Source of the DNA: Tricholomella constricta
Taxonomy: Eukaryota > Basidiomycota > Agaricomycetes > Agaricales > Lyophyllaceae
DNA length: 64,000 bases
NCBI GenBank assembly: GCA_013368375.1
Contig: JAACJP010000007.1
Span: 310,001 to 374,000 of the forward strand
Reading direction: 5' to 3'
This document shows positions 1 through 53,438 of this stretch, piece by piece. Under the pieces are notes generated by a model. That model was given only the letters and a program-made list of their open reading frames with translations. It was not told the DNA's origin and ran no database searches. The position numbers and the translations under genes are program-made. Every line of letters begins with the position of its first letter. The first letter of the stretch is position 1.

Positions 1-1707
1 TCGACGAGGGCGCGACGCAGAGCACCATCCGCGATGAACATGTCGGACGCGAAGGCGGTATGCGTGAGGTCAAGGGCTAGGACAGTTTTCAGAAAGAGGG
101 AAAGAGAAAACAAAGGGAATGGAAGAGAACTCACCATCGACGCGAAGGCGAAGGTCCAAAGCATGACCACGCCAAAAGTCCCGGACCTCCTGCAAATGGA
201 CAACGTGCCCCTGTAAACCAGCGACCTCATCCTCAAAACCCGCAACCTGCATCCGCAGATCCTCGACCTCAATGTCACGATCGACATCGACGACCTCCAC
301 GGCACGCGATGTCTGCGCCTGCAGATGAAGAAGACGTTCACGCTCGTCGGCGAGTTGGGATAGGACTCCGTGAAAACGACCTTTGTGGCGTTCACCCTCG
401 GCCTCGAGACGCTCGACCTGGGATGAAAGGGCCTGAGCACGCGCGACCTCCTGGTCGTAGAGACGCTGGAGACGGAGGAACGCCTCCGGTGAAGGAACAG
501 AAGGAGCAGGGGTAGCGAGGGGGGACGACAACAACATGGAGGGAGGGCAAGACTGTAGAGCTGGAAGAGCTGGCGTTGGAGAATTCGAAACAGACGAGCC
601 CTTTAAAAAGAGAGGCTCGACAGGGGGAGTATCGGGGGACACCGCGCGCGTAGCGCCCGACAAAGGAGGGGCCAAAAGAGGAGAAGTCGGCGCCGCGGGA
701 GAAAGGGAAGGGGAACGAGACACGGACGAAGGCCGCCTCCCCAGCCCCTGCAGACCAGATCGCCCACCCCCACGACTAACAGACACTAATTTTCGACCCT
801 GCCCTCGGGTACCTCGAAAAATGGCGCGTGGAGGCGAAACACGGCTAACGCTCATGGCGGCCTCATCACCAGAAGACGAAGTCAGGGAAAGGACCTCCGC
901 AGAGGGCACGGAGACAAGGGAGTTTCGAAAAGAAGGCGGCGCCACACGCAAGACGCGACGGATGGCGTCGAAGGACATCGCGACACCAGTACGAGAAAAA
1001 GTGAACCCTTCGACACGGGATTGAAGCCACGCCAAGGGGATGCCCAACTGCCTAGCCGCCACTTCTAGGCCATGATCGAGCGAAAGCGAGCACAAGGAGT
1101 GCGCCGCACGACAATCAACACAAGGCAGGGTCCCGCGAAGACGGACCTCCTGAAATTGACAAGGCTGCTGACGCCCCCGACAACGATCGCACTAACGAAG
1201 AACCCAAAACGGAATCAGCTAAAGCGATCGACTCGATCACAGAAGGAGGGCGACACTTACCGGCGCATGCGCCTCACACCATGCCAAGGAGGGAGGAACC
1301 CGCACAGCGGTACGCAACACCTCCGCCAAAATCGCATCCGTCAACAACGACCCCCAGGATAAGGAGGTGGCCGCCGGACGCGATACAGGATCACTAGCCA
1401 GTTCAAACTCGGCCTCAGGAGTGACGGAACGAGGACGCCGGATTTGTCGAGATCGGTTAGGAAGACGGATGGTGAGACGAGGGACGGGGGGCGTAGAGGG
1501 AGCAGGGGAAGAGTCAGGGATCGTCGAAACGCCCCCATCGATAAGAGTGACGATCTCAGGCAGAGAGGAGGTGGGAGAAGCAGGTTGGGGCACGCCCAAG
1601 AACGCGACGCGCGCTCGATCTTCAGCGGACAAGCGCGCCAATTCCTCATCGTGTAAAATTCGGGCAGCGGAGGCAGAGGACGCGGAATCTTGGTGGGACC
1701 TCGACAT
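1..1707 (-). CDS. Antisense Zn2Cys6/coiled-coil protein of element A0 (3' end outside window)
   Basis: Function unknown. On the minus strand I infer exon 1 1707-1261 (149 codons), intron 1260-1192 (GTAAGT...TTAG, 69 nt), exon 2 1191-135, intron 134-77 (GTGAGT...CTAG, 58 nt) and exon 3 from 76 to the window edge. Exon 2 opens with a perfect Zn(II)2Cys6 spacing, C-x2-C-x6-C-x12-C-x2-C-x6-C, starting CDRCR and with exactly six cysteines in the cluster. A Ser/Pro-rich linker and a long coiled coil follow, ending near VDG at the second donor. Both introns keep the frame. The protein is clearly diverged from the copy at 9078-11074 yet has the same exon phases and domains, which argues for real coding. 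It lies antisense to the retroelement, between pol and the 3' LTR. DNA binding is inferred from the cluster only. Confidence 0.72.
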
Positions 1708-2287: not shown

Positions 2288-4415
2288 CGACCCCCAAAGC
2301 GCGGGACGTTCCTTCCACATGCCAATTCAGGAGCCCGTTCCCTCCAGAATCAAAACTAGATTCGAAGAACCTCCACGAGCGACAAGCACGGTCAATACGC
2401 AGACAGCTTCGGCTCTACTCAGGAGAATGAACCAAGGGAACGCTCCCCCCAGCCAAGAAGGGTTCGAACCCACCGTCACACCAGGGACAGACGCTCGAAG
2501 AGCTCCGACGTTCGGGTTCTGGGGAGCCCACAATTTACAAAGAATCCCCGAAGAGAACCCCCCTGTCGAAGGACCGTTTTCCAGGCCAAATTCGGGTTTT
2601 CAGGGCCCACAGAGGACCTTCGCAAACCAAGAAGGAGTACCTCCGAGGGAACCTGAGAACATTCCCCTACCTCCGTCGGAACGGGGAATCCCAACGCCAC
2701 TGTCGTACGCCCACAGCTACGAACTACGCGAAGAAAACTCGGAAAGAAGAGAGGGAGCACCCCCTAGGGCACGAGAAGACTGGCGCCAAACACCACCTCA
2801 TCTGGCAAATCAGAACAGGAGGTCACCGCAAGGCCCACGCCCAATCTCCCCAAGAGAACGACGTGGAATCGGAGCGGACCCCGGCCCCGGTCAAAACGTA
2901 AATATCCTCGACGGAAGGCAAGGGACCCAACAACAATTCCCCCAGTTCGAACAATACAGAACTGGCTACAACCCCGGACCAGCCCCACCCATACCCGGCG
3001 GACGACCGAACCCCCAGTACAACGGACCACCTCCACAGCCCCAACCACCTCCGGGATCTTCGGGACCACCTACCCCGAGAGGAACTCAATGGGGAAACGG
3101 CCCCGGAGGACCAGGAGGGGGAGGAGGAGGTTATTGGGGAAACGGCCCCGGAGGAACAGGAGGTCCTGGAGGAGGGGGAGGTCACGGAGGATACGGACCA
3201 CCACAAGGACCAGGAGGCCCGGGAGGCCACGGAGGTCCCGGAGGGGGAGGAGGAGGCCACGGAGGAGGAGGAGGAGGAGGCCCACCCGGAAATCCGGGAG
3301 GAGGCCAATTCGCAAACCCACAACGACCCCCACCTCCACCGCAACAGCTCTTAGGCCCAAACCAAAACCTGACCCCGGAACAGTACCGACACCTCCTAAA
3401 CCTGGAATCGAAAATCGACATCAGGAAACCGGACCCCTTCACTGGAAAAGAACCGAGGAGATGGAAAACCTTCGTCACGGAATGCCTAGTAACGTTTCAA
3501 GCCAAGGCGATCACCTACGAACAGGATCACCTGAAGGTGTCATTCGCGAGCTCCTACTTAAAGGACGGAGCTATGGACTACTTTCGGCTGCAACTCACGT
3601 ACAACCCCCAACACCCAATGTTCACGAATTGGGAAGGATTCGTACACGAATTAGGATCACGCTTCGGAATACCGAACTCGAGAGTGGAAGCCGAGAACAA
3701 CATTTCACGACTGAAAATGAAGGAATGGGAAAAGTTCACAGCATTCATCATCAAGTTCGAACAAGAAGCGTACGAAACAGGCTGGAACTGGGTAGCACTA
3801 CAGTTCACACTCCGGAAAGCGCTCCCCCAGCGAATCCTTAACGTCCTGGCCATCGCACCAAGCCCCGAAACCTACGAAGGTTACCGAGATCTGGTCACTC
3901 AAATCGATCGGAGGTACTGGGAACATCGCATAGAAAATCCAGAGTCCTACAAACCCCTCTGGGCGAATAATGCGAACACCCCCAACACCTCCGCACAACC
4001 TCCGATGGGACCTTCGGCCGGACCCGCAAGCCGCACGACGCCGCAAACGGCTCAAGGGAACAGGAACGCACGCTTGAACGCCGAAAGTCATGATCAGGAC
4101 CCGGACTCAGGTAGGGAAGGTAAGGCGCAAGACCAGGAAATCGCATGGGACGACGAGGAGGCCCTACAAGCCAACAACTTTGGTTTCAAGAAGTCAACAC
4201 GCCCCTGGGTGAAGATTGACGAAGACGTAAAGCAACAACGAATTCGAGACAAGGCCTGCATCCTATGCGGTGACCTGGAACACTGGATGCGCGACTGCCC
4301 AACAGCAAACGCCATGGGCAGAGCCACCTACCTCATCGGCGACGACATCTTCGAATTCCATCACAAGACAGAAGAGGGAAACGCGGGGGCGATTCAGGAC
4401 TTGCCCGGGCTCTGA
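2288..4415 (+). pseudogene. gag: Gag, 5'-truncated (A1)
   Basis: Structural capsid/nucleocapsid polyprotein of a Ty3/gypsy element. The frame is open from 2289 (DPQSAGRSFH then Met at 2319) to TGA 4413-4415, about 708 residues against 954 in A2 and A3. The missing N-terminal ~246 codons end exactly at the LTR1 junction. Present are a Pro/Arg-rich region, a Gly-rich tract (about 3090-3310), a retrotransposon gag domain (about 3380-3930) and one CCHC zinc knuckle ([15 protein letters not shown]-x2-C-x4-H-x4-C) near 4257-4298. Without the N-terminus and a 5' LTR promoter this copy should not give normal Gag. Confidence 0.85.
3090..3315 (+). repeat. (GGA)n/Gly-rich low-complexity tract inside gag (A1)
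   Basis: Runs of GGAGGAGG and GGGGGAGGAGG encode Gly-Pro-Gly repeats. The same tract is at about 24557-24783 in A2 and 45212-45438 in A3. The purine-rich sense strand could form G-quadruplexes; its Pro-rich antisense reading frames are shadows. Confidence 0.7.
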
Positions 4416-4420
4416 ATCGC
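4376..4420 (+). promoter_or_regulatory. Predicted -1 ribosomal frameshift signal, gag to pol (A1)
   Basis: Slippery heptamer GGGAAAC (4376-4382) is in the 0 frame as G GGA AAC. A 6-nt spacer follows, then a perfect 9-bp stem GCGATTCAG (4389-4397) / CTGAATCGC (4412-4420) with a 14-nt loop; the gag stop (4413-4415) is inside the stem. After a -1 shift the frame is open into the protease. In A1 the first possible pol ATG position (4450) is ACG, so pol depends on frameshifting. It is identical in A2 and A3. Confidence 0.75.
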
Positions 4421-7400
4421 GAAGACCTAAAACCGGACCTTGACACTAAACTACGCGCAACGGCATTATCGACAACGGACACCCGCACAGTAACTCTCTC
4501 CTCCCATTCGTCACTGGCATTCCTAATACACCTCACGCCAAACGGAGGAGGAGAAGACCCCGAAAACACGCTCATTGACAGCGGAGCTACCGACAACTTC
4601 ATGGACTCCGTCATGGCGACATCACGTGGGCTCCACCTTGAGGAGCTCAACCCCCCAATAAACCTCTGCCTATTCGACGGAGAACTCTCCGCATCAGGCA
4701 AAATCACACACTATACCACCAACGACGTCAAATTCAGTGACGGCACCACTCAGAGGATAAGATTCCTCATAACGAAACTCCACGAGACAGCGACGATAGT
4801 ACTGGGACTATCATGGCTGAAGGAGGTCAATCCCCACATAAATTGGAAAGACCTCTGCATCACGCTACGACGGGGGTCAAACGGCAAAATCGAAGGATCA
4901 CTACCGGACCTCCGAAGGAAAAAGGAAGTCGCTCCAACAACAACAGACACAGGAGCTCAACGCTTACCCTCGCGGTCGGCTCGCTCCTTCACGATCGAAG
5001 TACAGTTGGAGGGATCTGCAACGCGTCTACGGGCACTTATTGATAGTGGGGCGGCGGGCAACTTCATAACAAAATCCTCGTGTACGAAGCCGGAACCTCT
5101 CGCCAACCCCATGACCCTACAACTGTTCGACGGAAACCCCAGCGGAGGCGGAGCCATTTCACACCATAGTCCCGAAACGATCAAACTCGAGAACGGACTA
5201 GAGTATAAGGTCGACCTCCTCATAACACAGTTACATCCAGCCACACCATTAGTGCTCGGATTACCTTGGTTACGGGAAGCAAATCCGGACATCGACTGGC
5301 GGGAAATGTCCATGACCATGGAACAAGGAGCAGGACTAGCCGCGATATCGCTTTCCCAGAAGACGCAATGGGGAACCGTGACCCTTGAGGAGGAGGAAGA
5401 CGTCGAAGCTCCGAAACCAGCCAACCCCCTTTCGGAAAAACAACCCCTCCTCAGGGACCTCCTGGACGACGACAACGATCAGAACGACACCTCCAGCGAC
5501 AACATGAAGGAGGAAGATACCCGCCCAAACACTAACGAACCCCAAGAGGAAGTACCAACACCGACAACCGAGTCGCCAGAGGAGGTAACGGGACGGAAAC
5601 ACACCCGAAAACCACCTCCACCCAACTACTTCCCTCCAAACGTTCCGAGGTCCAAATTCAAACCCCACCCCAAACGGAAACCCGCAACGTCCCCAACGAC
5701 AGAAACACAGGAAGAAGAGGAAACCAACCCGGAAACGGAGGTCGAAGACGAAACCGGAGAGAGAGAAGAGGATGTCGAAACACAAAGCATCCGCCTGATC
5801 GGAGCGGCGCCATTCGCGAACCTCATCAGGGACGGAGCCACAGCGTTCCAACTACACATCTCCCCCACCGAACAGGAAGAACACCTCCATACCAATAACA
5901 CCTCCGACGACGAACCCAAGCAACCAAAGACAGAAAAGGAAATCTTTGAGGAAGTCGTACCTCCGGAGTACAGGGACTTTGAAGACGTATTCTCAGCGGG
6001 CGAAGCGAAAACCATCCCCCCACACCGACCTTACGATCACACAGTGGAACTCGACGAAAACACTACCCCTCCTTTCGGAAAGATATACAACATGTCCGAA
6101 CTGGAGTTGAAAGCATTGAAGGATTACATCGACGAGATGCTCGGTAAAGGGTTCATCCGACCTTCGAGTTCGTCAGCGGGAGCTCCGGTACTGTTCGCAA
6201 AGAAGAAGGACGGATCACTCCGGCTATGCGTGGACTATAGAGGACTAAATCGGATCACCAAGAAGAACCGTTACCCTCTACCCCTGATCGGAGACCTCAT
6301 AGACCGACTTCAAAAAGCAAAAGTATACTCGAAGATCGACCTCCGAGTGGGCTACAACAACGTCCGCATAGCTCCGGGACACGAATGGAAGACAGCCTTC
6401 CGCACTCGCTATGGACTTTTCGAATACCTGGTAATGCCCTTCGGCATGACAAACTCACCCGCGACGTTCCAACACTTCATGAACGACATCTTCCACGACA
6501 TGAACGACGTGTTCGTAGTGATCTATCTCGACGACATTCTGGTTTTCTCGGAGACCTTAGAGGAACATCACGGACACGTTCGGAAAGTCCTCGAGAGGCT
6601 CCGGAAACACAACCTTCATGCGAAACCGGAGAAATGTACGTTTCACACTACGGAGATCGAATATCTAGGCGTCATCGTATCCCCCCGGCGGAGTAAAGAT
6701 GGATCCAGGAAAAGTCGACGCGATCCGGAAGTGGCCTAGACCGACGAAGGTCAAAGAACTCCAATCCTTCCTAGGCTTTGCAAACTTCTATCGGCGGTTT
6801 ATCGACAATTACTCGGGCATAACGAAGAGGTTAAATAAACTCACGCAAAAGGACACAATCTGGAAATGGGATTCCGAATGCGAAGGAGTCTTCGAGCTAT
6901 TGAAGAAAGCATTCTCCTCCGCACCCATCCTACGACACTTCGATCCTCAACTACCGGTGATACTAGAGTGCGATGCCTCCGACTTCGCCATAGTGGGGAT
7001 CATCTCCCAATTTGACGAGACATCACAAGACTTACGTCCGGTCGCCTTCTACGCGAGAACTATGATAGACGCGGAGCTCAACTACGACATCTATGACAAG
7101 GAGCTCCTAGCAATCGTGGAAGCGTTTAAACAATGGAGGGCCTACCTTGAGGGATCTCCCCACCGCATTCAAGTGTACTCCGACCACAACAACCTACAGT
7201 ACTTCTCCACGACCAAACAACTCAGTCGCAGACAAGCACGATGGTCGGAATGCCTGGCGAACTTCGACTTCCAGATAAACTATCGACCCGGAAGACTGGG
7301 AGCGAAGCCAGATGCCCTTACGCGAAGAGCGGACGTGTATCCAAAGAAGGGTTTCGAGCAGGATCACAACTCCTTCAACAACCGCATCATCATACCCCCC

Positions 7401-8873
7401 GAACGATTGAACGCGGCCCTAATACTGAACGAGGAGCTCCTACTAAACAATGTCTGGAACGCACCCCGAGACGATTTCTTCGAAAGGCATGCACCCAAAC
7501 CCGGAGAAGAGACCTCCGCATTCTCCCTATCCGATGATCACAAACTACTCCTTCGCGACGGAAGAATCTATGTACCAGACCATTCCAGATTACGACTCGA
7601 CATCCTACAGCAACACCACGATCACAAACTGCGCGGACATCCAGGGATCAGAAAGACCACACAACTCATCATGAGGACTTATTTCTGGCCCGGATTACGG
7701 AAGGAGGTCACTCGATACGTCCGAAGCTGTCATACCTGTAAAAGAGCGAAGGTCCCACGCCATAGCCCATACGGATTATTGAAACCACTCCAGATTGGGC
7801 GAAGGGCGTGGGCCTCCATATCCATGGACCACATCGTAGAATTACCGGAATCGGATGGGTACGACGCCATACTGGTCATAGTATGCCGCCTCACCAAGCA
7901 AGGCATCTTCATACCCTGTCACACAACGGACACAGCAAAGGAACTTGCTCAGCTATTCTTGGAACATGTCTTCTCCAAGCACGGACTGCCCGATGACATC
8001 ATCTCCAACAGAGGCACCCTCTTCGTCTCCCGTTTCTGGAGCTCGCTATGTAAAGCCCTGGACATCAAATCGAACCTTTCGACCGCGTATCACCCGGAGA
8101 CCGACGGCCAGACGGAACAAGTAAATCAGACACTGGAACAATACCTTCGGATGTACGTGAACTATCTCCAGACCAACTGGCGAACACAGCTCCCTCTGGC
8201 GGAATTCACGTATAACAATACGACCCATTCGACCACGGGAGTTTCCCCTTTCTTTGCGAACAAGGGTTATCACCCCCGCTTGACAATCTCTATAAAAGAT
8301 ATACCGGCGAAAGAAGCCCAGGAGGTAGCCGTAGACCTCCGGACCCTCCAGGACTACCTCCGCAAAGAAATAGAGATCGCAAACGAAGCCTACAAACGAT
8401 TCGCGGACAAGAAGCGGGACCCTACACCAGACTGGGCTGTAGGAACGGAGGTATGGCTCGACTGCGGGAACATATGCCCCTCCAAAAAGCTAGACCACCG
8501 GAGACTGGGCCCCTTCAAAATCCTGCAGAAGATTTCCAGCCATGCGTATCGACTGGAACTACCTCCGACACTGAAAGGGATTCACAACGTATTCCACGTC
8601 AAGTTACTCGAGAAGCACGAACACGAGAATTTCCCTGGACGATCAAAACCACCTCCGCAGACGATCAAAGTCGAGGGCGAAGAACACTACGAAGTGGGAC
8701 AAATCCTAGATTCCCGAACATGAGGGAAACACGTCCTCTACTTGGTACGATGGGAAGGGTACGGCCCCGAAGACGATACCTGGGAACCAGCGGAGAATAT
8801 GGAGGGAGCAAAAGACATGGCCCTCGAATTCCACCGACTTTTCCCAAGAAAGCCACGGGACCCCACGATTTAA
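4382..8873 (+). pseudogene. pol: Pol (PR-PR-RT-RH-IN-chromodomain), inactivated (A1)
   Basis: Reverse transcription and integration polyprotein in the -1 frame after gag. Two successive aspartic protease-like domains have DSGA motifs at 4577 and 5042. An acidic Pro/Glu-rich linker (about 5390-5900) follows, then RT with IYLDD (YLDD 6524-6535), RNase H (CDAS near 6970; YDKELLAI; YSDH), the integrase HHCC zinc region (about 7613-7745) and the integrase core. Lesions: six Cs at 6681-6686 where A2/A3 have five, shifting the frame after RT; the second integrase catalytic Asp is Asn (SNRG, codon 8007-8009); TGA 8721-8723 cuts off the chromodomain, whose frame is otherwise open to TAA at 8871-8873. 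The first Asp (SMDHI, 7827) and the Glu (8115) are kept. This is the only copy in the window that keeps the RT N-terminal segment deleted in A2 and A3. Confidence 0.88.
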
Positions 8874-9077: not shown

Positions 9078-11074
9078 CTACTCGATGCGACGACGCTTGG
9101 AGGGACCTGCACTGGCAGAGGAACCGTCCTCGCGCCCAACCCCCACCTCCCCAACCACCCCTACCTCCAGAGGAAGCATCGACGCGATGTCCTGCTCGTC
9201 GTTGGCGATCAATTGAGACTGAGACACAAACCCCGCAAGGGCGTCTTCACGAGTGAGAAATGGACGATGAAGAGCAAGGAAATGCTCGAAGGCGGGAAAA
9301 GGGGACTCGGGATCGACGGGAGGGCGAAAAAGCTCGCGGAGAGAATGCTGCTCAAGAATCTGATGAGCGGCGTCGACGATACCCCGGACCGGCGACGCCT
9401 CCATCTCGACGAGGGCGCGACGCAGAGCGCCATCCGCAACAAACATATCGGATGCGAAAGCAACACGCGCAAGCTCAAGGGCTACAACAAATTCCGGAGG
9501 TGAAAAAAGAGAACGAAAGAAGACAAAAGAAAGACTCACCATCGGTGCGAACGCGAAGGTCCAAGGCATGACCACGCCAATAGTCCCGAACCTCCTGGAG
9601 ATGGACGACGTGCCCCTTCAGACCCGCAACCTCATCCTCAAGACCCGCAACCTCCATCCGCAGATCCTCGACCTCGGCGTCACGATCGACGTCGACGACC
9701 TCCACGGCACTCGATGCCTGCGCCTGCAGATGAAGGAAACGTTCACGCTCGTCGGCGAGTTCGGCTAGGACTCCACGAAAACGACCCTTGTTGCGTTCGC
9801 CCTCGGCCTGGAGACGCTCTACCTGGAGGGACAAAGCCTGCGCACGCGCGACCTCCTGGTCATAGAGGCGCCGAAGACGGAGGTGCTCCTCAGGCGAAGG
9901 AGCAAGAGGGGCAGGAGCAGCGGGGGGGGACGACATCAACATAGCAGGAGGGGAAGCCTGGTGCAGAACCGGTGAGGGAGAGACCGATTCAGACGAACTC
10001 TTTAAAAAGAGAGGCTCCGAGGGCCCGACGATGGGAGAATCCGGAGAAGCGGCACGCATGGCGGCCCCAAGACGACGAACAGGGAAAGGGGAAACCGAGC
10101 TATCGGAGGGGGGAGGAGAATAACCAGGCATAGGCGAAGGGCGCGCCTCCGGAACAGACAAGCGCGCACCCCCACGACCGACAGGCACAGACCTTCGTCC
10201 CTGACCTCGCGTACCACGGAAAATAGCACGAGGAGGGGGAGCAGGAGGAAGTGAAACGGCACCAGTCCCTACAACGGACGAAGAGGCGGCGGGAAGAGGA
10301 GGCGGGATTGGCAAACGCAGGGCGCGACGGATGCTGGTAAAAGACATCGCAACGCCAGGGCGGGAGAAAGTAAAACCCTCGGCGCGAGAGCGAAGCCACT
10401 CCAACGGAATTCCCAACTGCCTAGCTGCCACCTCTAGGCCATGGTCCAACGAAAGCGAGCACAGGGAATGCGCTGCACAACACTCAACACAGGGCAGGGT
10501 CCCGCGAAGACAAACCTCCTGAAATCGACAAGACAGCCGATGCGTCCGACACCGATCACACTAACGAAGACCCCAAAAAGGAATCAGCTGAAACGCTGGA
10601 CTCGATTGCAGAAGAAGGGCGACATACCGGCTCATGCGCCTCACACCACGCCAAGGAGGGAGGAACCCGCACAGCGGTACGCAACACCTCCGCCAAAATT
10701 GCATCAGTGAAGAGGGGCCCCCACGACAACGAAGTCGCCGCCGGACGCGACACAGGGTCACTAGCAAACTCGAAATCGGCCTCGGGAGTGGTGGAACGAG
10801 GGCGACGGATCTGTTGGGATCGAATGGGCAGGCAGATGATCAGACGAGGGACAGGAGGTGGGAGAGGAACGGGGGACGACTCGGGGACCGCCCCGTCACT
10901 CCCATCGAGAAGGGTGGCAATCCCAGGGAGAGAGGGCGCCGGGGAAACGGGTTGAGGCGCGTCTAAGGACGCGACGCGCGACCGATCTTCGTCGATCAAA
11001 GGCGCCACGTCCGGATCTCGCAAAGCGGGGGCATTAGGAGGAGGAGACGCGACACGGGGCATAGGAGGCGACAT
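9078..11074 (-). CDS. Antisense Zn2Cys6/coiled-coil protein, intact (A1)
   Basis: Unknown function; the best reading is a nuclear, possibly DNA-binding protein. Exons on the minus strand: 11074-10628, 10560-9540, 9481-9078, total 1872 nt or 623 residues plus stop. Introns: 10627-10561 (GTATGT...TTAG, 67 nt, phase 0) and 9539-9482 (GTGAGT...GTAG, 58 nt, phase 1). Residues 1-149 are Ser/Pro-rich with a conserved block before the first intron. Residues 150-183 are CDRCR...C with Cys at 150, 153, 160, 173, 176 and 183, the Zn2Cys6 spacing, plus extra Cys at 166 and 177. A Pro/Ser linker and a coiled coil (about 372-488) follow, and the C-terminus ends PSKRRRIE, an NLS-like patch. The start ATG lies 220 bp from the 3' LTR. 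It is fully open although pol of the same element is dead. Splicing is inferred from sequence. Confidence 0.78.
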
Positions 11075-11178
11075 GAGGTCGACAGAATGGAAACAGAAGA
11101 AGAAAAACGACCAAGTTTTTCTCCTTTTCGATCTCCGAGATCCTCAAAACACCCACAAGGACCCACAACCGAGGCCCT

Positions 11179-11195
11179 CACGTGCCCCTCACGTG
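11179..11195. promoter_or_regulatory. Paired CACGTG motifs upstream of the antisense gene (A1)
   Basis: CACGTG at 11179-11184 and 11190-11195, about 105 bp upstream of the antisense ATG; the spacing matches the other A copies. Confidence 0.4.
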
Positions 11196-11280
11196 ACCGC
11201 GCGCGCGCATCAAAAAGGAAAAACAAATGCCACACTCCCCGTATCCAAACATTTTTCCGCATCTCAGTGGCTCGACGCTT

Positions 11281-11290
11281 GAGGAGGGGG
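11281..11290 (+). other. Polypurine tract of A1
   Basis: GAGGAGGGGG then TAA, directly 5' of LTR2. Confidence 0.75.
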
Positions 11291-11293
11291 TAA

Positions 11294-11652
11294 TGTCACG
11301 AACGTCCCTAACGACCACCCCTAAAGTCACACCCACTACGCTTTCCCACGCACGTCCGCCGTACATATATGACACCACTTTCTTTTCGGACACCTTACCT
11401 CGATATTACCATTTGTTAAGACCAGTTCCTGTTCTCGTTCTCGTTTCTATCTCTCTTTCTCAAATATACTTGGCTTCACACCTGTATCACCTGAGCTCGT
11501 TCGATCGAATTAGCTCCGGTGAACTCCTTCGTCAACGCTCACGACCTCCGAATATCCTTTCGAAGGCCGTTTTCCTTGACGAACGTCAGGCCTGTCCGCT
11601 TCGGTGGTTCCAGAGTACATCTGTAACCGACGTGCTACGCAGAGTCCTAACA
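11294..11652 (+). repeat. LTR2 (359 bp): 3' LTR of A1
   Basis: TGTCACGA...TCCTAACA. TATA-like ACATATATGA at 11363-11372 is followed about 30 nt later by ACCTCGATATTA (11397-11408), the putative mRNA 5' end. CCGCTTCGG is at 11596-11604. LTR4 matches it across the stretches compared. The following bases (GCGCC) would be the 3' copy of A1's target duplication in B; the partner is outside the window. Confidence 0.88.
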
Positions 11653-22643: not shown

Positions 22644-22988
22644 TGTCACGACCGCCCCTAAACTCGCAATCACTTACGCTTTCCCACGCACGTCCACCGC
22701 ATATATGATGGCACCACTTCTTTTCAGACTCTTTACCTCGATATTACCATTTGTTACGACTAGTTCCCGTTCCCGTTTCTTATTCTCTCTTACTCTCTCG
22801 GTTTACTCGGCTCCGCAATTGTATCACTTGTGCTCATTCATTCGAATAAGCTCCGGTGAACACCCTCGTCAACGCTCACGACCTCCGATTACCCTATCGG
22901 AGCCCGTCTTCCTTGACGACGTCAGGCCTGTCCGCTTCGGTGGTCTCGGAATAACTCCGCAACCAGCGTGCTACGCAAGGTCCTAACA
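22644..22988 (+). repeat. LTR3 (345 bp): 5' LTR of A2
   Basis: TGTCACGACC...GGTCCTAACA. TATA-like CATATATGA near 22700-22708. ACCTCGATATTA at 22735-22746 is about 34 nt downstream of the TATA and is the exact complement of the PBS at 22989-23000. CCGCTTCGG at 22932-22940. It matches LTR5 where compared. Confidence 0.9.
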
Positions 22989-23000: not shown

Positions 23001-23017
23001 CTCCCCACCCACCGGAC

Positions 23018-30200: not shown

Positions 30201-32197
30201 CTACTCGATGCGACGACGCTTGGAGGGACCTGCACTGGCAGAGGAACCGTCCTCGCGCCCAACCCCCACCTCCCCAACCACCCCTACCTCCAGAGGAAGC
30301 ATCGACGCGATGTCCTGCTCGTCGTTGGCGATCAATTGAGACTGAGACACAAACCCCGCAAGGGCGTCTTCACGAGTGAGAAATGGACGATGAAGAGCAA
30401 GGAAATGCTCGAAGGCGGGAAAAGGGGACTCGGGATCGACGGGAGGGCGAAAAAGCTCGCGGAGAGAATGCTGCTCAAGAATCTGATGAGCGGCGTCGAC
30501 GATACCCCGGACCGGCGACGCCTCCATCTCGACGAGGGCGCGACGCAGAGCGCCATCCGCAACAAACATATCGGATGCGAAAGCAACACGCGCAAGCTCA
30601 AGGGCTACAACAAATTCCGGAGGTGAAAAAAGAGAACGAAAGAAGACAAAAGAAAGACTCACCATCGGTGCGAACGCGAAGGTCCAAGGCATGACCACGC
30701 CAATAGTCCCGAACCTCCTGGAGATGGACGACGTGCCCCTTCAGACCCGCAACCTCATCCTCAAGACCCGCAACCTCCATCCGCAGATCCTCGACCTCGG
30801 CGTCACGATCGACGTCGACGACCTCCACGGCACTCGATGCCTGCGCCTGCAGATGAAGGAAACGTTCACGCTCGTCGGCGAGTTCGGCTAGGACTCCACG
30901 AAAACGACCCTTGTTGCGTTCGCCCTCGGCCTGGAGACGCTCTACCTGGAGGGACAAAGCCTGCGCACGCGCGACCTCCTGGTCATAGAGGCGCCGAAGA
31001 CGGAGGTGCTCCTCAGGCGAAGGAGCAAGAGGGGCAGGAGCAGCGGGGGGGGACGACATCAACATAGCAGGAGGGGAAGCCTGGTGCAGAACCGGTGAGG
31101 GAGAGACCGATTCAGACGAACTCTTTAAAAAGAGAGGCTCCGAGGGCCCGACGATGGGAGAATCCGGAGAAGCGGCACGCATGGCGGCCCCAAGACGACG
31201 AACAGGGAAAGGGGAAACCGAGCTATCGGAGGGGGGAGGAGAATAACCAGGCATAGGCGAAGGGCGCGCCTCCGGAACAGACAAGCGCGCACCCCCACGA
31301 CCGACAGGCACAGACCTTCGTCCCTGACCTCGCGTACCACGGAAAATAGCACGAGGAGGGGGAGCAGGAGGAAGTGAAACGGCACCAGTCCCTACAACGG
31401 ACGAAGAGGCGGCGGGAAGAGGAGGCGGGATTGGCAAACGCAGGGCGCGACGGATGCTGGTAAAAGACATCGCAACGCCAGGGCGGGAGAAAGTAAAACC
31501 CTCGGCGCGAGAGCGAAGCCACTCCAACGGAATTCCCAACTGCCTAGCTGCCACCTCTAGGCCATGGTCCAACGAAAGCGAGCACAGGGAATGCGCTGCA
31601 CAACACTCAACACAGGGCAGGGTCCCGCGAAGACAAACCTCCTGAAATCGACAAGACAGCCGATGCGTCCGACACCGATCACACTAACGAAGACCCCAAA
31701 AAGGAATCAGCTGAAACGCTGGACTCGATTGCAGAAGAAGGGCGACATACCGGCTCATGCGCCTCACACCACGCCAAGGAGGGAGGAACCCGCACAGCGG
31801 TACGCAACACCTCCGCCAAAATTGCATCAGTGAAGAGGGGCCCCCACGACAACGAAGTCGCCGCCGGACGCGACACAGGGTCACTAGCAAACTCGAAATC
31901 GGCCTCAGGAGTGGTGGAACGAGGGCGACGGATCTGTTGGGATCGAATGGGCAGGCAGATGATCAGACGAGGGACAGGAGGTGGGAGAGGAACGGGGGAC
32001 GACTCGGGGACCGCCCCGTCACTCCCATCGAGAAGGGTGGCAATCCCAGGGAGAGAGGGCGCCGGGGAAACGGGTTGAGGCGCGTCTAAGGACGCGACGC
32101 GCGACCGATCTTCGTCGATCAAAGGCGCCACGTCCGGATCTCGCAAAGCGGGGGCATTAGGAGGAGGAGACGCGACACGGGGCATAGGAGGCGACAT
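30201..32197 (-). CDS. Antisense Zn2Cys6/coiled-coil protein, intact (A2)
   Basis: Same 623-residue protein as at 9078-11074, shifted by 21,123 bp. Exons 32197-31751, 31683-30663, 30604-30201; introns 31750-31684 (67 nt) and 30662-30605 (58 nt). The two copies look identical in protein sequence; I noticed one silent base change in exon 1 (31908 region, CTCAGG for CTCGGG). Zn2Cys6-type cluster at residues 150-183, coiled coil about 372-488, C-terminal KRRR. Because A2 inherited its 3' half from A1 by recombination, this is a copy of the A1 gene and not independent evidence of conservation. Confidence 0.78.
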
Positions 32198-32413: not shown

Positions 32414-32416
32414 TAA

Positions 32417-43298: not shown

Positions 43299-43643
43299 TG
43301 TCACGACCGCCCCTAAACTCGCAATCACTTACGCTTTCCCACGCACGTCCACCGCATATATGATGGCACCACTTCTTTTCAGACTCTTTACCTCGATATT
43401 ACCATTTGTTACGACTAGTTCCCGTTCCCGTTTCTTATTCTCTCTTACTCTCTCGGTTTACTCGGCTCCGCAATTGTATCACTTGTGCTCATTCATTCGA
43501 ATAAGCTCCGGTGAACACCCTCGTCAACGCTCACGACCTCCGATTACCCTATCGGAGCCCGTCTTCCTTGACGACGTCAGGCCTGTCCGCTTCGGTGGTC
43601 TCGGAATAACTCCGCAACCAGCGTGCTACGCAAGGTCCTAACA
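43299..43643 (+). repeat. LTR5 (345 bp): 5' LTR of A3
   Basis: TGTCACGACC...GGTCCTAACA. Putative mRNA 5' end ACCTCGATATTA at 43390-43401; CCGCTTCGG at 43587-43595. One mismatch to LTR6. Confidence 0.92.
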
Positions 43644-43655
43644 TAATATCGAGGT
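43644..43655 (+). other. Self-complementary primer-binding site (A3)
   Basis: TAATATCGAGGT, directly after LTR5, is the perfect complement of 43390-43401. Same arrangement as A2. Confidence 0.7.
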
Positions 43656-43672
43656 CTCCCCACCCACCGGAC

Positions 43673-46537
43673 ATGTCCTCGACGATAGTGGAGCCCAACA
43701 CCACAGTCCGCTATCAAAACTTCGAAGGTCCCTCTTTCACACAAAGAAGACCTTCACCCCCACCTTTCGAAACCTCCCCTGCCTCAACAGGACACATGAT
43801 GCAAGGGACCTTCGGAACCAACAGGTCCAGGCTGGAACACAACATTTTCCAACCAGGCCAACACGAGGGGGACTTTTCCTCAGCCAGTCAGGACCCTCGA
43901 CGACCCCTACCCCGGACCCCCTCAAACGTATTCAACCCGTCCTACCAACTCGCCACCCCCAACTATCCCCCCTTACCACCATCCGCAACGGCCTCCGGAC
44001 CTCCGCCTTCAAGTAACCAGACTCCTGGGTCATACTACGAAAGGTTGAGGCACCCGGAGATGTTCCAGAGGAGGGATAGGGCTCGGGAGGAGGGACAGGG
44101 ACACTTCGCTCGTCAACAAAACCCCTTCCTACACGGTTCAGACCACGAAAGAATACTCTACGAGCTCCGCATGACTCGGGAAGAGTTTTCACGACAAGCG
44201 CACGAGCTCCTAGTCGAAACCATGGGGATGGATCATCAACCCCGAACACCGGAACAATGGGCCAACCTTGTGTTGTCGACCATACAACTGCACGAAGCCC
44301 ATCGATTACCCCCACAACTGACGGTGTTGCTACAAATGGGGGGAAACGAAAGAAGGTTACGCGCCCTGGCTGGAGAAATCCAGACGTCCAACGAGGGAAG
44401 AAGATTCTCCGACCCCCAAAGCGCGGGACGTTCCTTCCACATGCCAATTCAGGAGCCCGTTCCCTCCAGAATCGAAACTAGATTTGAAGAACCTCCACGA
44501 GCGACAAGCACGGTCAATACGCAGACAGCTTCGGCTCTACTCAGGAGGATGAACCAAGGGAACGCACCCCCCAGCCAAGAAGGGTTCGAACCCACCGTCA
44601 CACCAGGGACAGACCCTCGAAGAGCTCCGACGTTCGGGTTCTGGGGAGCCCACAACTTACAAAGAATCCCCGAAGAGAAACCCCCTGTCGAAGGACCGTT
44701 TTCCAGGCCAAATTCGGGTTTTCAGGGCCCACAGAAGACCTTCGCAAACCAAGAAGGAGTACCTCCGAGGGAACCTGAGAACATTCCCCTACCTCCGTCG
44801 GAACGGGGAATCCCAACGCCACTGTCGTACGCCCACAGCTACGAACTACGCGAAGAAAACTCGGAAAGAAGAGAGGGAGCACCCCCTAGGGCACGAGAAG
44901 ACTGGCGCCAAACACCACCTCATCTGGCAAATCAGAACAGGAGGTCACCGCAAGGCCCACGCCCAATCTCCCCAAGAGAACGACGTGGAATCGGAGCGGA
45001 CCCCGGCCCCGGTCAAAACGTAAACATCCTCGACGGAAGGCAAGGGACCCAACAACAATTCCCCCAGTTCGAACAATACAGAACTGGCTACAACCCCGGA
45101 CCAGCCCCACCCATACCCGGGGGACGACCGAACCCCCAGTACAACGGACCACCTCCACAGCCCCAACCACCTCCGGGATCTTCGGGACCACCTACCCCGA
45201 GAGGAACTCAATGGGGAAACGGCCCCGGAGGACCAGGAGGGGGAGGAGGAGGTTATTGGGGAAACGGCCCCGGAGGAACAGGAGGTCCTGGAGGAGGGGG
45301 AGGTCACGGAGGATACGGACCACCACAAGGACCAGGAGGCCCGGGAGGCCACGGAGGTCCCGGAGGGGGAGGAGGAGGCCACGGAGGAGGAGGAGGAGGA
45401 GGCCCACCCGGAAATCCGGGAGGAGGCCAATTCGCAAACCCACAACGACCCCCACCTCCACCGCAACAGCTCTTAGGCCCAAACCAAAACCTGACCCCGG
45501 AACAGTACCGACACCTCCTAAACCTGGAATCGAAAATCGACATCAGGAAACCGGACCCCTTCACTGGAAAAGAACCGAGGAGATGGAAAACCTTCGTCAC
45601 GGAATGCCTAGTAACGTTTCAAGCCAAGGCGATCACCTACGAACAGGATCACCTGAAGGTGTCATTCGCGAGCTCCTACTTAAAGGACGGAGCTATGGAC
45701 TACTTTCGGCTGCAACTCACGTACAACCCCCAACACCCAATGTTCACGAATTGGGAAGGATTCGTACACGAATTAGGATCACGCTTCGGAATACCGAACT
45801 CGAGAGTGGAAGCCGAGAACAACATTTCACGACTGAAAATGAAGGAATGGGAAAAGTTCACAGCATTCATCATCAAGTTCGAACAAGAAGCGTACGAAAC
45901 AGGCTGGAACTGGGTAGCACTACAGTTCACACTCCGGAAAGCGCTCCCCCAGCGAATCCTTAACGTCCTGGCCATCGCACCAAGCCCCGAAACCTACGAA
46001 GGTTACCGAGATCTGGTCACCCAAACCGACCGGAGGTACTGGGAACATCGCATAGAAAATCCAGAGTCCTACAAACCCCTCTGGGCGAATAATGCGAACA
46101 CCTCCAACACCTCCGCACGACCTCCGATGGGACCTTCGGCCGGACCCGCAAGCCGCTCGACGCCGCAAACGGCTCAAGGGAACAGGAACGCACGCTTGAA
46201 CGCCGAAAGTCATGATCAGGACCCGGACTCAGGTAAGGAAGGTAAGGCGCAAGGCCAAGAAATCGCATGGGATAACGAAGAGGCCCTACAAGCCAACAAC
46301 TTCGGGTTCAAGAAGTCAACACGCCCCTGGGTGAAGATCGACGAAGACGTAAAGCAACAACGAATTCGAGACAAGGCCTGCATCCTATGCGGTGATCTGG
46401 AACACTGGATGCGCGACTGCCCAACAGCAAACACCATGGGCAGAGCCACCTATCTCATCGGCGACGATATCTTCGAATTCCATCACAAGACAGAAGAGGG
46501 AAACGCGGGGGCGATTCAGGACTTGCCCGGGCTCTGA
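43673..46537 (+). CDS. gag: Gag polyprotein, full length (A3)
   Basis: 954 residues, ATG 43673 to TGA 46535-46537, with the same domain order as A2: Pro/Arg-rich N-terminus, Gly-rich tract (about 45212-45438), gag domain, CCHC knuckle (46379-46420). It keeps FASSY where A2 has FVSSY. TQTDRRYWEH is shared with A2 and differs from TQIDRRYWEH in A1, one of the marks that A2's 5' half came from A3. Fully open. Confidence 0.9.
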   Translation: MSSTIVEPNTTVRYQNFEGPSFTQRRPSPPPFETSPASTGHMMQGTFGTNRSRLEHNIFQPGQHEGDFSSASQDPRRPLPRTPSNVFNPSYQLATPNYPPLPPSATASGPPPSSNQTPGSYYERLRHPEMFQRRDRAREEGQGHFARQQNPFLHGSDHERILYELRMTREEFSRQAHELLVETMGMDHQPRTPEQWANLVLSTIQLHEAHRLPPQLTVLLQMGGNERRLRALAGEIQTSNEGRRFSDPQSAGRSFHMPIQEPVPSRIETRFEEPPRATSTVNTQTASALLRRMNQGNAPPSQEGFEPTVTPGTDPRRAPTFGFWGAHNLQRIPEEKPPVEGPFSRPNSGFQGPQKTFANQEGVPPREPENIPLPPSERGIPTPLSYAHSYELREENSERREGAPPRAREDWRQTPPHLANQNRRSPQGPRPISPRERRGIGADPGPGQNVNILDGRQGTQQQFPQFEQYRTGYNPGPAPPIPGGRPNPQYNGPPPQPQPPPGSSGPPTPRGTQWGNGPGGPGGGGGGYWGNGPGGTGGPGGGGGHGGYGPPQGPGGPGGHGGPGGGGGGHGGGGGGGPPGNPGGGQFANPQRPPPPPQQLLGPNQNLTPEQYRHLLNLESKIDIRKPDPFTGKEPRRWKTFVTECLVTFQAKAITYEQDHLKVSFASSYLKDGAMDYFRLQLTYNPQHPMFTNWEGFVHELGSRFGIPNSRVEAENNISRLKMKEWEKFTAFIIKFEQEAYETGWNWVALQFTLRKALPQRILNVLAIAPSPETYEGYRDLVTQTDRRYWEHRIENPESYKPLWANNANTSNTSARPPMGPSAGPASRSTPQTAQGNRNARLNAESHDQDPDSGKEGKAQGQEIAWDNEEALQANNFGFKKSTRPWVKIDEDVKQQRIRDKACILCGDLEHWMRDCPTANTMGRATYLIGDDIFEFHHKTEEGNAGAIQDLPGL

Positions 46538-46542
46538 ATCGC
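46498..46542 (+). promoter_or_regulatory. Predicted -1 ribosomal frameshift signal, gag to pol (A3)
   Basis: GGGAAAC 46498-46504, 6-nt spacer, stem 46511-46519 / 46534-46542, loop 14 nt; the gag stop lies inside the 3' stem strand. Confidence 0.77.
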
Positions 46543-49500
46543 GAAGATCTAAAACCGGACCTTGACACTAAACTACGCGCAATGGCATTATCGACAACGG
46601 ACACCCGCACAGTAACTCTCTCCTCCCATTCATCACTGGCATTTCTAATACACCTAACGCCAAACGGAGGAGGAGAAGACCCCGAAAACACGCTCATCGA
46701 CAGCGGAGCTACCGACAACTTCATGGACTCCGTCATGGCGACATCACGTGGGCTCCACCTTGAGGAGCTCAACCCCCCAATAAACCTCTGCCTATTCGAC
46801 GGAGAACCCTCCGCATCAGGCAAAATCACACACTATACCACCAACGACGTCAAATTCAGTGACGGCACCACTCAGAGGATAAGATTCCTCATAACGAAAC
46901 TCCACGAGACAGCGACGATAGTACTGGGACTATCATGGCTGAAGGAGGTCAATCCCCGCATAAATTGGAAAGACCTCTGCATCACGCTACGACGGGAGTC
47001 AAACGGCAAAATCGAAGGATCACTACCGGACCTCCGAAGGAAAAAGGAAATCGCTCCAACAACAACAAGCACAGGAGCTCAACGCTTACCCTCGCGGTCA
47101 GCTCGCTCCTTCACGATCGAAGTACAGTTAGAAGGATCCTCAACGCGACTACGGGCACTTATCGATAGTGGAGCGGCGGGAAATTTCATAGCACAATCCT
47201 CGTGTACGAAACCGAAACCTCTCGCCAGCCCCATGACCCTACAACTGTTCGACGGAAACCCCAGCGGAGGTGGAGCCATTTCACACCATAGTCCCGAAAC
47301 AATCAAACTTGAGAACGGACTAGAGTATAAGGTCGACCTCCTCATAACACAATTACATCCAGCCACACCAGTAGTGCTTGGATTACCTTGGTTACGGGAA
47401 GCAAATCCGGACATCGACTGGCGGGAAATGTCCATGACCATGGAACAAGGGGCAGGACTAGCCGCGATATCGCTTTCCCAGAAGACGCAATGGGGAACCG
47501 TGACCCTTGAGGAGGAGGAAGACGTCGAAGCTCCAAAACCAGCCAACCCCCTTTCGGAGAAACAACCCCTCCTCAGGGACCTCCTGGACGACGACAACGA
47601 TCAGAACGACACCCCCAGCGACAACACGAAGGAGGAAGACACCCGCCCAAACACCAACGAACCCCAAGAGGAAGTACCAACACCGACAACCGAGTCGCCA
47701 GAGGAGGTAACGGGACGGAAACGCACCCGAAAACCACCCCCACCGAACTACTTCCCTCCAAACGTTCCGAGGTCCAAATTCAAACCCCACCCCAAACGGA
47801 AATCCGCAACGTCCCCAACGACAGAAACACAGGAAGAAGAGGAAACCAACCCGGAAACGGAGGTCGAAGACGAAACCGGAGAGAGAGAAGAGGATGTCGA
47901 AACACAAAGCATCCGCCTGATCGGAGCGGCGCCATTCGCGAACCTCATCAGGGACGGAGCCACAGCGTTCCAACTACACATCTCCCCCACCGAACAGGAA
48001 GAACACCTCCATACCAATAACACCTCCGACGACGAACCCAAGCAACCAAAGACAGAAAAGGAAATCTTTGAGGAAGTATAGACCGACTTCAAAAAGCAAA
48101 AGTATACTCGAAGATCGACCTCCGAGTGGGCTACAACAACGTCCGCATAGCTCCGGGACACGAATGGAAGACAGCCTTCCGCACTCGCTATGGACTTTTC
48201 GAATACCTGGTAATGCCCTTCGGCATGACAAACTCACCCGCGACGTTCCAACACTTCATGAACGACATCTTTCACGACATGAACGACGTGTTCGTAGTGA
48301 TCTATCTCGACGACATTCTGGTTTTCTCGGAGACCTTAGAGGAACATCACGGACACGTTCGGAAAGTCCTCGAGAGGCTCCGGAAACACAACCTTCATGC
48401 GAAACCGGAGAAATGTACGTTTCACACTACGGAGATCGAATATCTAGGCGTCATCGTATCCCCCGGCGGAGTAAAGATGGATCCAGGAAAAGTCGACGCG
48501 ATCCGGAAGTGGCCTAGACCGACGAAGGTCAAAGAACTCCAATCCTTCCTAGGCTTTGCAAACTTCTATCGGCGGTTTATCGACAATTACTCGGGCATAA
48601 CGAAGAGGTTAAATAAACTCACGCAAAAGGACACAATCTGTAAATGGGATTCCGAATGCGAAGGAGTCTTCGAGCTATTGAAGAAAGCATTCTCCTCCGC
48701 ACCCATCCTACGACACTTCGATCCTCAACTACCGGTGATACTAGAGTGCGATGCCTCCGACTTCGCCATAGTGGGGATCATCTCCCAATTTGACGAGACA
48801 TCACAAGACTACGTCCGGTCGCCTTCTACGCGAGAACTATGATAGACGCGGAGCTCAACTACGACATCTATGACAAGGAGCTCCTAGCAATCGTGGAAGC
48901 GTTTAAACAATGGAGGGCCTACCTTGAGGGATCTCCCCACCGCATTCAAGTGTACTCCGACCACAACAACCTACAGTACTTCTCCACGACCAAACAACTC
49001 AGTCGCAGACAAGCACGATGGTCGGAATGCCTGGCGAACTTCGACTTCCAGATAAACTATCGACCCGGAAGACTGGGAGCGAAGCCAGATGCCCTTACGC
49101 GAAGAGCGGACGTGTATCCAAAGAAGGGTTTCGAGCAGGATCACAACTCCTTCAACAACCGCATCATCATACCCCCCGAACGATTGAACGCGGCCCTAAT
49201 ACTGAACGAGGAGCTCCTACTAAACAATGTCTGGAACGCACCCCGAGACGATTTCTTCGAAAGGCATGCACCCAAACCCGGAGAAGAGACCTCCGCATTC
49301 TCCCTATCCGATGATCACAAACTACTCCTTCGCGACGGAAGAATCTATGTACCAGACCATTCCAGATTACGACTCGACATCCTACAGCAACACCACGATC
49401 ACAAACTGCGCGGACATCCAGGGATCAGAAAGACCACACAACTCATCATGAGGACTTATTTCTGGCCCGGATTACGGAAGGAGGTCACTCGATACGTCCG

Positions 49501-50661
49501 AAGCTGTCATACCTGTAAAAGAGCGAAGGTCCCACGCCATAGCCCATACGGATTATTGAAACCACTCCAGATTGGGCGAAGGGCGTGGGCCTCCATATCC
49601 ATGGACCACATCGTAGAATTACCGGAATCGGATGGGTACGACGCCATACTGGTCGTAGTATGCCGCCTCACCAAGCAAGGCATCTTCATACCCTGTCACA
49701 CAACGGACACAGCAAAGGAACTTGCTCAGCTATTCTTGGAACATGTCTTCTCCAAGCACGGACTGCCCGATGACATCATCTCCGACAGAGGCACCCTCTT
49801 CGTCTCCCGTTTCTGGAGCTCGCTATGTAAAGCCCTGGACATCAAATCGAACCTTTCGACCGCGTATCACCCGGAGACCGACAGCCAGACGGAACAAGTA
49901 AATCAGACACTGGAACAGTACCTCCGGATATACGTGAACTACCTCCAGACCAACTGGCGAACACAGCTCCCACTGGCGGAATTCACGTATAACAATACGA
50001 CCCATTCGACCACGGGAGTCTCTCCTTTCTTTGCGAACAAGGGTTATCACCCCCGCCTGACAATCTCTATAAAAGACATACCGGCAAAGGAAGCCCAGGA
50101 GGTAGCCGTAGACCTCCGGACCCTCCAGGACTACCTCCGCCAAGAGATAGAGATCGCAAACGAAGCCTACAAACGATTCGCGGACAAGAAACGGGACCCT
50201 ACACCAGATTGGGCCGTAGGAACGGAGGTATGGCTCGATTGCCGGAACATCAAAACGAAACGCCCCTCCAAAAAGCTGGACCACCGGAGACTGGGCCCCT
50301 TCAAAATCCTGCAGAAGATCTCCAGCCACGCGTATCGACTGGAACTACCTCCGACACTGAAAGGGATTCACAATGTCTTCCACGTCAAGTTGCTCGAGAA
50401 ACATGAGCACGAGAATTTCCCCGGACGATCAAAACCACCTCCGCAGACGATCGAAGTCGAGGGCGAAGAACACTACGAAGTGGGACAGATCCTGGATTCC
50501 CGAACACGAGGGAAAAACACGTCCTCTACTTGGTACGATGGGAAGGGTACGGCCCCGAAGACGATACCTGGGAACCAGCGGAGAATATAGAAGGAGCAAA
50601 GGACATGGCCCTTGAATTCCACCGACTATTCCCAAGAAAACCACGGGACCCCACAATTTAA
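46504..50661 (+). pseudogene. pol: Pol, RT-deleted and frameshifted (A3)
   Basis: PR-PR and linker open to 48081. The same 343-bp deletion as A2 removes the RT N-terminal part and ends the frame. RT core and RNase H continue 48126-48842 (YLDD 48303-48314) until one T is missing at about 48810 (AAGACTACG for AAGACTTACG). RNase H end and integrase continue from 48839; D, D and E residues are present (SMDHI, SDRG, QTEQVN). The GPF/Y region keeps a longer form (CRNIKTKRPSKK) than A1/A2 (CGNICPSKK). Two extra As at 50513-50517 shift the frame in the chromodomain, which otherwise retains CGA where A1/A2 have TGA and ends at TAA 50659-50661. Confidence 0.87.
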
Positions 50662-50890
50662 AAAGACACTCGACGAACACTCACGCACACCAACACATCA
50701 CGAAAATTATGCAAATTTTCCCAAGACTAAACTCTACTATATGTATTCAACCACCAGCGCAACAATATCACACAAAGAAAAAATATCAAGGAAAAAGAAA
50801 AAAAAAAAAACAAACGAACGAACTCCGGACTGTAAATATTCAGCAAAAAAAAAAAAAAAACGCAGGCCAAGACGCTGCAGAAGGGACCGA

Positions 50891-52871: not shown

Positions 52872-52977
52872 GAGCAGGACGAAGAGAAGATGGAGGAGGA
52901 ACAAACAACCTAAGTTTTTTCTCTTTCGATCTCCGAGATCCTCAAAAACACCCACAAGGACCTACAACCGAGACCGA

Positions 52978-52994
52978 CACGTGCCCCTCACGTG
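52978..52994. promoter_or_regulatory. Paired CACGTG motifs upstream of the antisense gene (A3)
   Basis: CACGTG at 52978-52983 and 52989-52994, about 107 bp upstream of the antisense ATG at 52871. Confidence 0.4.
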
Positions 52995-53080
52995 ACCGCG
53001 CGCGACCCAGAAAGGAGAATAACCGCCACACCCCCCGTATTCGAACATTTCTTTTTCCGCGTCTCAGTGGCTCGACACTT

Positions 53081-53090
53081 GAGGAGGGGG
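53081..53090 (+). other. Polypurine tract of A3
   Basis: GAGGAGGGGG then TAA, directly 5' of LTR6. Confidence 0.78.
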
Positions 53091-53093
53091 TAA

Positions 53094-53438
53094 TGTCACG
53101 ACCGCCCCTAAACTCGCAATCACTTACGCTTTCCCACGCACGTCCATCGCATATATGATGGCACCACTTCTTTTCAGACTCTTTACCTCGATATTACCAT
53201 TTGTTACGACTAGTTCCCGTTCCCGTTTCTTATTCTCTCTTACTCTCTCGGTTTACTCGGCTCCGCAATTGTATCACTTGTGCTCATTCATTCGAATAAG
53301 CTCCGGTGAACACCCTCGTCAACGCTCACGACCTCCGATTACCCTATCGGAGCCCGTCTTCCTTGACGACGTCAGGCCTGTCCGCTTCGGTGGTCTCGGA
53401 ATAACTCCGCAACCAGCGTGCTACGCAAGGTCCTAACA
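53094..53438 (+). repeat. LTR6 (345 bp): 3' LTR of A3
   Basis: Matches LTR5 except one C to T in the CCACCGC segment. CCGCTTCGG at 53382-53390. Followed by the target copy GTTTG at 53439-53443. Confidence 0.92.

Follow-up and report, generated by a model that had tools for sequence, protein, structure and literature searches.

We analysed a stretch of 64,000 nucleotides from the mushroom Tricholomella constricta (the window, meaning the whole stretch), which holds four copies, A0 to A3, of a gene carried by a long terminal repeat (LTR) retrotransposon family of the chromovirus type (family 1). The predicted gene has three exons and lies on the minus strand between pol and the 3' LTR. Its protein has a cluster of six cysteines and is under purifying selection across four subfamilies of the element. 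We lean, without strong conviction, towards reading it as an accessory gene of the element's own, whose zinc-cluster-like protein would tune the element's sense transcription.

The antisense gene and its copies

In the copy A1, minus-strand exons at 11074-10628, 10560-9540 and 9481-9078 joined into a single frame of 623 amino acids. Exon 1 (10628..11074) holds the start codon, a variable N-terminus and a conserved core block ahead of the cluster. It is followed by intron 1 (10561..10627, GTATGT..TAG, 67 nt), which lies in phase 0 immediately 5' of the first cysteine codon. Exon 2 (9540..10560) encodes the six-cysteine cluster, a Pro/Ser-rich linker and a coiled coil. After intron 2 (9482..9539, GTGAGT..TAG, 58 nt), exon 3 (9078..9481) encodes a conserved C-terminal part and the basic tail PSKRRRIE, and ends with the stop codon. 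The gene is placed tail-to-tail with pol.

The other three copies lie on the same strand. A2 (30201..32197) was 99.95% identical to A1 and had the same model at +21123. A0 (1..1707, subfamily s3) has exons at 1261-1707 and 135-1191, while exon 3, from position 76, runs off the window start; its gene model was intact when the complete copy L041 was used. In A3 (50891..52871, subfamily s2) the length of exon 2 was one base off, which broke the frame. The original prediction had described a three-exon antisense gene in this place, with frames joining exactly in three copies. Both claims were borne out, with the model holding in A1, A2 and A0 (as L041), and A3 as the exception.

Further, we compared 63 copies, namely A1, A2 and A3 from the window and 60 fetched from the genome, among which A0 is represented by L041. 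The fetched copies were hand-picked, 20 from each of three match lists (46, 42 and 41 rows). This choice omitted fragmented rows and some full-length rows, and the fractions given here are not genome-wide ones. The copies fell into four subfamilies (s1, 22 copies; s2, 21; s3, 7; s4, 12) and one intermediate, L048. The ATG and the GT..AG borders of both introns were kept in 63/63 copies, and the full frame was uninterrupted in 47/63 (18 of s1, 14 of s2, 7 of s3 and 8 of s4). Conservation of the frame in related elements, which the original prediction had set as a test, was thus found. Exon lengths in the subfamily representatives differed by multiples of three (447 and 453 for exon 1; 1021, 1012, 1057 and 1042 for exon 2), exon 3 was 404 in all of them, and intron lengths varied freely (67, 58, 69 and 70 for intron 1; 58, 53, 58 and 52 for intron 2). 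Judged from these sequences, the predicted spliced three-exon antisense gene is real and conserved.

We estimated nonsynonymous (dN) and synonymous (dS) divergence of family 1 from uninterrupted copies. Between subfamily representatives dS was 0.55-0.85, dN 0.11-0.20 and dN/dS 0.19-0.30. Exon by exon, dN/dS of the coding frame was 0.10-0.42, and four of the other five frames gave at least 0.84. The fifth, the mirror frame, read from the other strand so that third positions face each other, gave 0.17-0.59 and exceeded the coding frame in 18/18 comparisons. The antisense protein is therefore under purifying selection across the four subfamilies. Numerous long stop-free frames occur in the window, as would suit a frame left open in GC-rich DNA by chance or as the mirror of another. 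We regard that explanation as refuted by the frame-specific dN/dS, by the splice phases and by the exon-length changes in multiples of three among uninterrupted copies.

Constraint was tightest (0.10-0.20) in the core before the cluster (0.15), the zinc cluster (0.14), the part after it (0.14), the coiled coil (0.20), exon 3 (0.14) and the tail (0.10), and relaxed in the N-terminus (0.45) and the linker (0.49). Within subfamilies dN/dS was 0.35-0.74, in keeping with drift of young copies once they have inserted. As a yardstick, we compared pol and gag of subfamilies s1, s3 and s4, which gave 0.06-0.10 and 0.11-0.18, respectively; the antisense gene is therefore under weaker constraint than either. 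In these subfamilies dS was also lower for whole pol (0.17-0.23) and gag (0.09-0.22) than for the antisense gene. By quarters of pol, dS was 0.03-0.14 in the first two and 0.20-0.41 in the last two, and therefore the history of the element reaches further back at its 3' end than in its 5' part. Such a gradient is as expected if 3' modules were exchanged by recombination.

We considered whether the antisense transcript itself could act, as double-stranded RNA or by interference with the sense RNA, and find this improbable. Convergent transcription would overlap the 3' part of the sense RNA, and double-stranded RNA is discussed in the available part of PMC7264820; the dN/dS of 0.19-0.30, the uninterrupted frames and the conserved cysteines nevertheless point to selection on the protein. 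Since RNA alone does not explain selection at the codon level, an RNA role survives as an extra at most.

It is also very unlikely that the gene was recently captured from the host and is a mere passenger that does nothing for the element. Its introns and fungal-type motif are host-like, and capture long ago is conceivable. Recent capture, however, is rejected by the gene's presence in four subfamilies with dS of 0.55-0.85 and low dN/dS, and limited protein searches, not exhaustive for host orthologues, returned two T. constricta proteins alone.

The predicted protein and its possible role

The product has 621-635 amino acids and consists, in order, of the core block, the six-cysteine cluster, the linker, the coiled coil, the conserved C-terminal part and the basic tail. 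The cluster (10459..10560 on the minus strand of A1) lies inside the protein, at residue 150, and is preceded by an additional conserved block. Its spacing, C-x2-C-x6-C-x12-C-x2-C-x6-C, was exact in 47/47 uninterrupted copies. As had been claimed, the clusters of A0 and A3 have exactly six cysteines; those of A1 and A2 contain two additional ones. Basic residues lie between cysteines 2 and 3. A KRRR-bearing tail was present in 44/47 uninterrupted copies. The coiled coil was correctly foreseen, while the KRRR, which had been placed at its end, closes the exon-3 part instead.

When five of the proteins were shuffled, even a loose six-cysteine pattern appeared in 0/20,000 shuffles for each of them. 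Zn2Cys6 proteins share the spacing C-x2-C-x6-C-x5-12-C-x2-C-x6-8-C. This spacing and a PROSITE-like pattern were matched by 47/47 uninterrupted copies. By its spacing the motif fits the Zn2Cys6 family, and the predicted protein is zinc-cluster-like.

Between the ATG of the gene and the 3' LTR lies a conserved spacer (11075..11293, minus strand), which contains the polypurine tract (PPT) and is a possible antisense promoter. It was 218-225 bp long in the 58 of 63 copies in which its border string was found (the string was missing in L009, L036, L037, L045 and L060). Among the four subfamily representatives 140 of 211 ungapped columns were invariant, compared with 82 of 232 fourfold sites. The invariant blocks of at least 10 nt were a 26-nt block adjoining the PPT, GGTCACGTGAGGGGCACGTG and GAGGATCTCGGAGA. 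GGTCACGTGAGGGGCACGTG (11179..11198, minus strand) contains two CACGTG (E-box) motifs and was exact in 54/58 copies. The longer block GAGGATCTCGGAGATC (11130..11145, minus strand), which contains the inverted repeat GATCTC-G-GAGATC, was found in 48/58 copies and is absent from A0; its core 14-mer had 90 matches in the genome and none in a reversed control. The 26-nt block may serve priming. GGTCACGTGAGGGGCACGTG and GAGGATCTCGGAGA, which lie away from it, are possibly parts of the antisense promoter.

Exon-2-type matches with TAGTGTGATCGATGTCG were also observed at G000:C2:457348, C7:695931, C24:655266 and other places, and in several cases the palindrome block preceded the match by about 590 bp. 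This suggests a further subfamily of the predicted antisense gene.

In the mechanism that we propose, the spacer, with its two E-boxes and palindrome, would act as the promoter of the antisense gene, and the transcript would be spliced. The protein would dimerise via its coiled coil and be brought into the nucleus by its basic tail. The zinc cluster would bind DNA, most likely the element's own spacer or LTR, and the bound protein would tune sense transcription in a manner like that of HBZ of human T-lymphotropic virus (HTLV). We infer that the antisense protein may be a regulator. The introns could persist because the template of reverse transcription, the sense genomic RNA, contains them in reversed orientation, in which they stay unspliced; this follows from the established replication cycle of LTR elements.

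Two observations weigh against this mechanism. First, the LTR (238/335 invariant columns across the four subfamilies) and intron 1 (36/56; intron 2, 18/49) were about as conserved as the spacer that would serve as promoter. Second, Pfam Zn_clus (PF00172), proposed with the original prediction as a check, matched 5 of the 8 queries that contained the cluster, at 11.8-14.4 bits and so under the gathering score of 21; no match was listed for the spliced A1 product, window positions 70-1191 and exon 2 of L041. A search of the genome with PF00172 did not recover the antisense gene at E <= 0.01. The Zn2Cys6 assignment therefore stood by spacing and fell short by profile, and we describe the protein as zinc-cluster-like and not as a PF00172 member.

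Structural comparisons were of little help. The full-length AlphaFold model had a predicted local distance difference test score of 38.5 and was mostly coiled coil, and its Foldseek search was uninformative. With the zinc piece, no zinc-cluster protein was among the Foldseek matches listed, a result that excludes nothing. Sequence searches of the PDB gave no match or matches at chance level: PUT3 (E 0.7) for family 1, ferredoxins (from E 0.1) for the second family described below, and AtzG (E 0.21) and LEU3 (E 6.8) for a joint profile.

The low Pfam score would also suit a protein with an accessory part in the replication cycle, in the capsid, in the pre-integration complex or as a chromatin tether, with the cysteine cluster binding nucleic acid or a partner. 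The long coiled coil, the conserved C-terminal part, which is selected as strongly as the cluster, and a pol with a chromodomain agree with such a role, and a function of an antisense open reading frame (ORF) protein in retrotransposition is discussed in the available part of PMC7264820. We nevertheless consider it unlikely, if worth serious attention, since the basic tail, the Zn2Cys6 spacing and the basic residues between cysteines 2 and 3 suit a DNA binder, and since the protein is encoded on the other strand, separate from gag-pol.

The host element and a second family

Uninterrupted gag and a 1535-amino-acid pol were present in 3 of 8 fetched upstream stretches (L061, L063 and L065). Both of the pol ORFs tested (L061 and L063, from s1 and s3) contained protease, RVT_1, RT_RNaseH, Integrase_H2C2 and, C-terminally, Chromo (PF00385, 49-50 bits) domains. 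By this domain content the host element is a Ty3/gypsy chromovirus. In the window, gag-pol of A1 (2288..8873, plus strand) is 5' truncated at 2288 and interrupted, with a chromodomain stretch at its end and a stop at 8721-8723; the 3' LTR of A1 follows at 11294..11652 (plus strand, TG..CA). The A3 element (43299..53438, plus strand) has both LTRs, at 43299-43643 and 53094-53438. The LTRs are 345-359 bp long and bounded by TG..CA, and the G-rich PPT GAGGAGGGGG adjoins the 3' LTR. The primer binding site (43644-43655) complements 12 nt within the LTR (43390-43401), shortly past a TATA-like site; we take this to be self-priming of the Tf1-like kind.

We searched the genome with a pattern for the exon-2 start, which requires an intron end directly before the first cysteine, and obtained 121 matches and 0 in a reversed control. 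Of the 104 exact PPT/LTR ends in the genome, the 85 up to contig C55 were checked, and 76 of these had an exon-2 start 600-900 bp inward on the same strand, which is the position that defines the antisense accessory ORF class aORF-3R. Among the 100 pattern matches listed, 8 belonged to the second family, 3 lay in a non-LTR reverse transcriptase ORF and 1 was not examined. One candidate, L070, was rejected as a chance match inside an ORF of the non-LTR reverse transcriptase type.

Several other features of the window were observed. The LTRs of the A2 element (22644-32775) were merely 82% alike. Its identity to A3 was 99.6-100% up to about 29,150, 91-96% to about 29,900 and 77-87% beyond; by this profile the A2 element is a chimera of two subfamilies. 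A stretch of 343 bp of pol, present in relatives, was missing from A2 (about 27422) and A3 (about 48077); judged by translation, A1 seems to have it. A gypsy-like element B (14022-18809 and 35145-39464) is split by arrays, in inverted halves, of tandem repeats of about 163-166 bp each. The window holds tandemly repeated units of 20.7-21.1 kb, and had no match in Rfam.

The second family was recognised at L069, where an integrase-type ORF lies on one strand and, past its end, a split antisense gene has CDRCRKQGVSCPQNPERGPCLRCQAQRKGC after a basic exon. Domains for RNase H and an H2C2 integrase were found in a neighbouring pol ORF (L072); L069's own integrase piece scored under the threshold. 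These features indicate that a second gypsy-type family, recognised by its ORFs, carries its own predicted antisense six-cysteine gene. It was found in 10 near-identical places (one of them partial) and in 4 copies of a 69% subfamily. For the zinc exon, comparison of L069 with L071 gave dS 1.56, dN 0.217 and dN/dS 0.139, as against 0.205 in the mirror frame and 1.8-1.9 in the other four; the basic exon gave 0.29. In a single BLASTP comparison, families 1 and 2 were significantly similar in the cluster alone (15/41 columns, E 5e-4), and the two genes may thus be of common or of separate origin. Their common intron position was built into the pattern by which family 2 was found. Upstream of the family 2 zinc gene, a further antisense open stretch with a basic motif was observed (L073:105-776), and other parts of the genome contain relatives of its DNA at 69-81%.

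We put forward tentatively, with some doubt, that on more than one occasion LTR retrotransposons of fungi recruited DNA-binding proteins of the zinc-cluster type, encoded by antisense genes that are spliced and have their own promoter by the 3' LTR. Such genes would be self-regulating, a counterpart of HBZ in which the introns survive. If this is true, deltaretroviruses and some plant elements are not alone in having antisense regulatory genes, and fungal elements have enlisted for this purpose a DNA-binding motif typical of fungi. It would also offer an explanation for the persistence of introns in a retrotransposon, and with a short multicopy mushroom gene the role of antisense accessory genes becomes testable.

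Comparison with known proteins and elements

The spliced product of L009 was letter-for-letter identical to the GenBank protein D9615_008569 of T. constricta, when compared as product. NCBI names this protein hypothetical, and UniRef names it after the Zn(2)-C6 fungal-type domain. A second GenBank model, D9615_009035, fuses a stretch of Copia-type reverse transcriptase domain to the antisense zinc gene and is probably a gene-prediction merger. Protein-database searches, which need shared 5-residue words and in part scored only the roughly 8000 candidates with most words in common, returned these two T. constricta proteins alone and no homologue from any other species. Transposons are often masked by annotation pipelines. 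With both limits, absence from other species is not established. Searches of the open-licence literature turned up no paper on a fungal element with a zinc-cluster gene in antisense.

The fungal Zn2Cys6 transcription factors Gal4, Put3 and Ppr1 share with the antisense protein the six-cysteine spacing, the basic residues between cysteines 2 and 3 and a later coiled coil. Unlike them, the antisense protein has a Pfam score below the cut-off and an internal cluster, and is encoded by a retrotransposon.

PMC7264820, in its available part, reviews antisense ORFs that lie between pol and the 3' LTR, in plants and in the fungal element Boty. In plants, Grande gene23, RIRE2, Retand TRP28 and PvRetro13 occupy the same place. 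The Grande product is nuclear (PMC7264820, available part), and the Retand TRP28 ORFs are predicted to be DNA-binding (PMC11963269, available part). By these descriptions, on which the distinction rests, the plant elements have other domains, Retand is not a chromovirus, and a six-cysteine cluster is not mentioned. Boty, an LTR element of the fungi Botrytis cinerea and Sclerotinia, likewise has an antisense ORF in this place, and its account in the available part of PMC7264820, by which it was compared, mentions neither a zinc cluster nor introns. The claim that such a gene is not standard for fungal chromoviruses therefore has to be narrowed: the antisense position is known, and what is new is that the gene is spliced and zinc-cluster-like and that such a gene recurs in two fungal families.

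Outside plants and fungi, a mussel Steamer-like element has an antisense mRNA (PMC10974842, available part). Functional parallels to the regulator that we propose are HTLV-1 HBZ and HTLV-2 APH-2. According to the available part of PMC10186651, both are nuclear antisense proteins with spliced transcripts that target 5' LTR transcription or Tax/CREB, and HBZ reduces 5' LTR transcription. HBZ is a basic leucine zipper (bZIP) protein, APH-2 has no bZIP, and a zinc cluster is not named there for either; the likeness is an analogy, drawn from descriptions and not from sequences. The antisense promoter of HTLV lies inside the 3' LTR, whereas that of the T. constricta element is possibly the spacer beside it.
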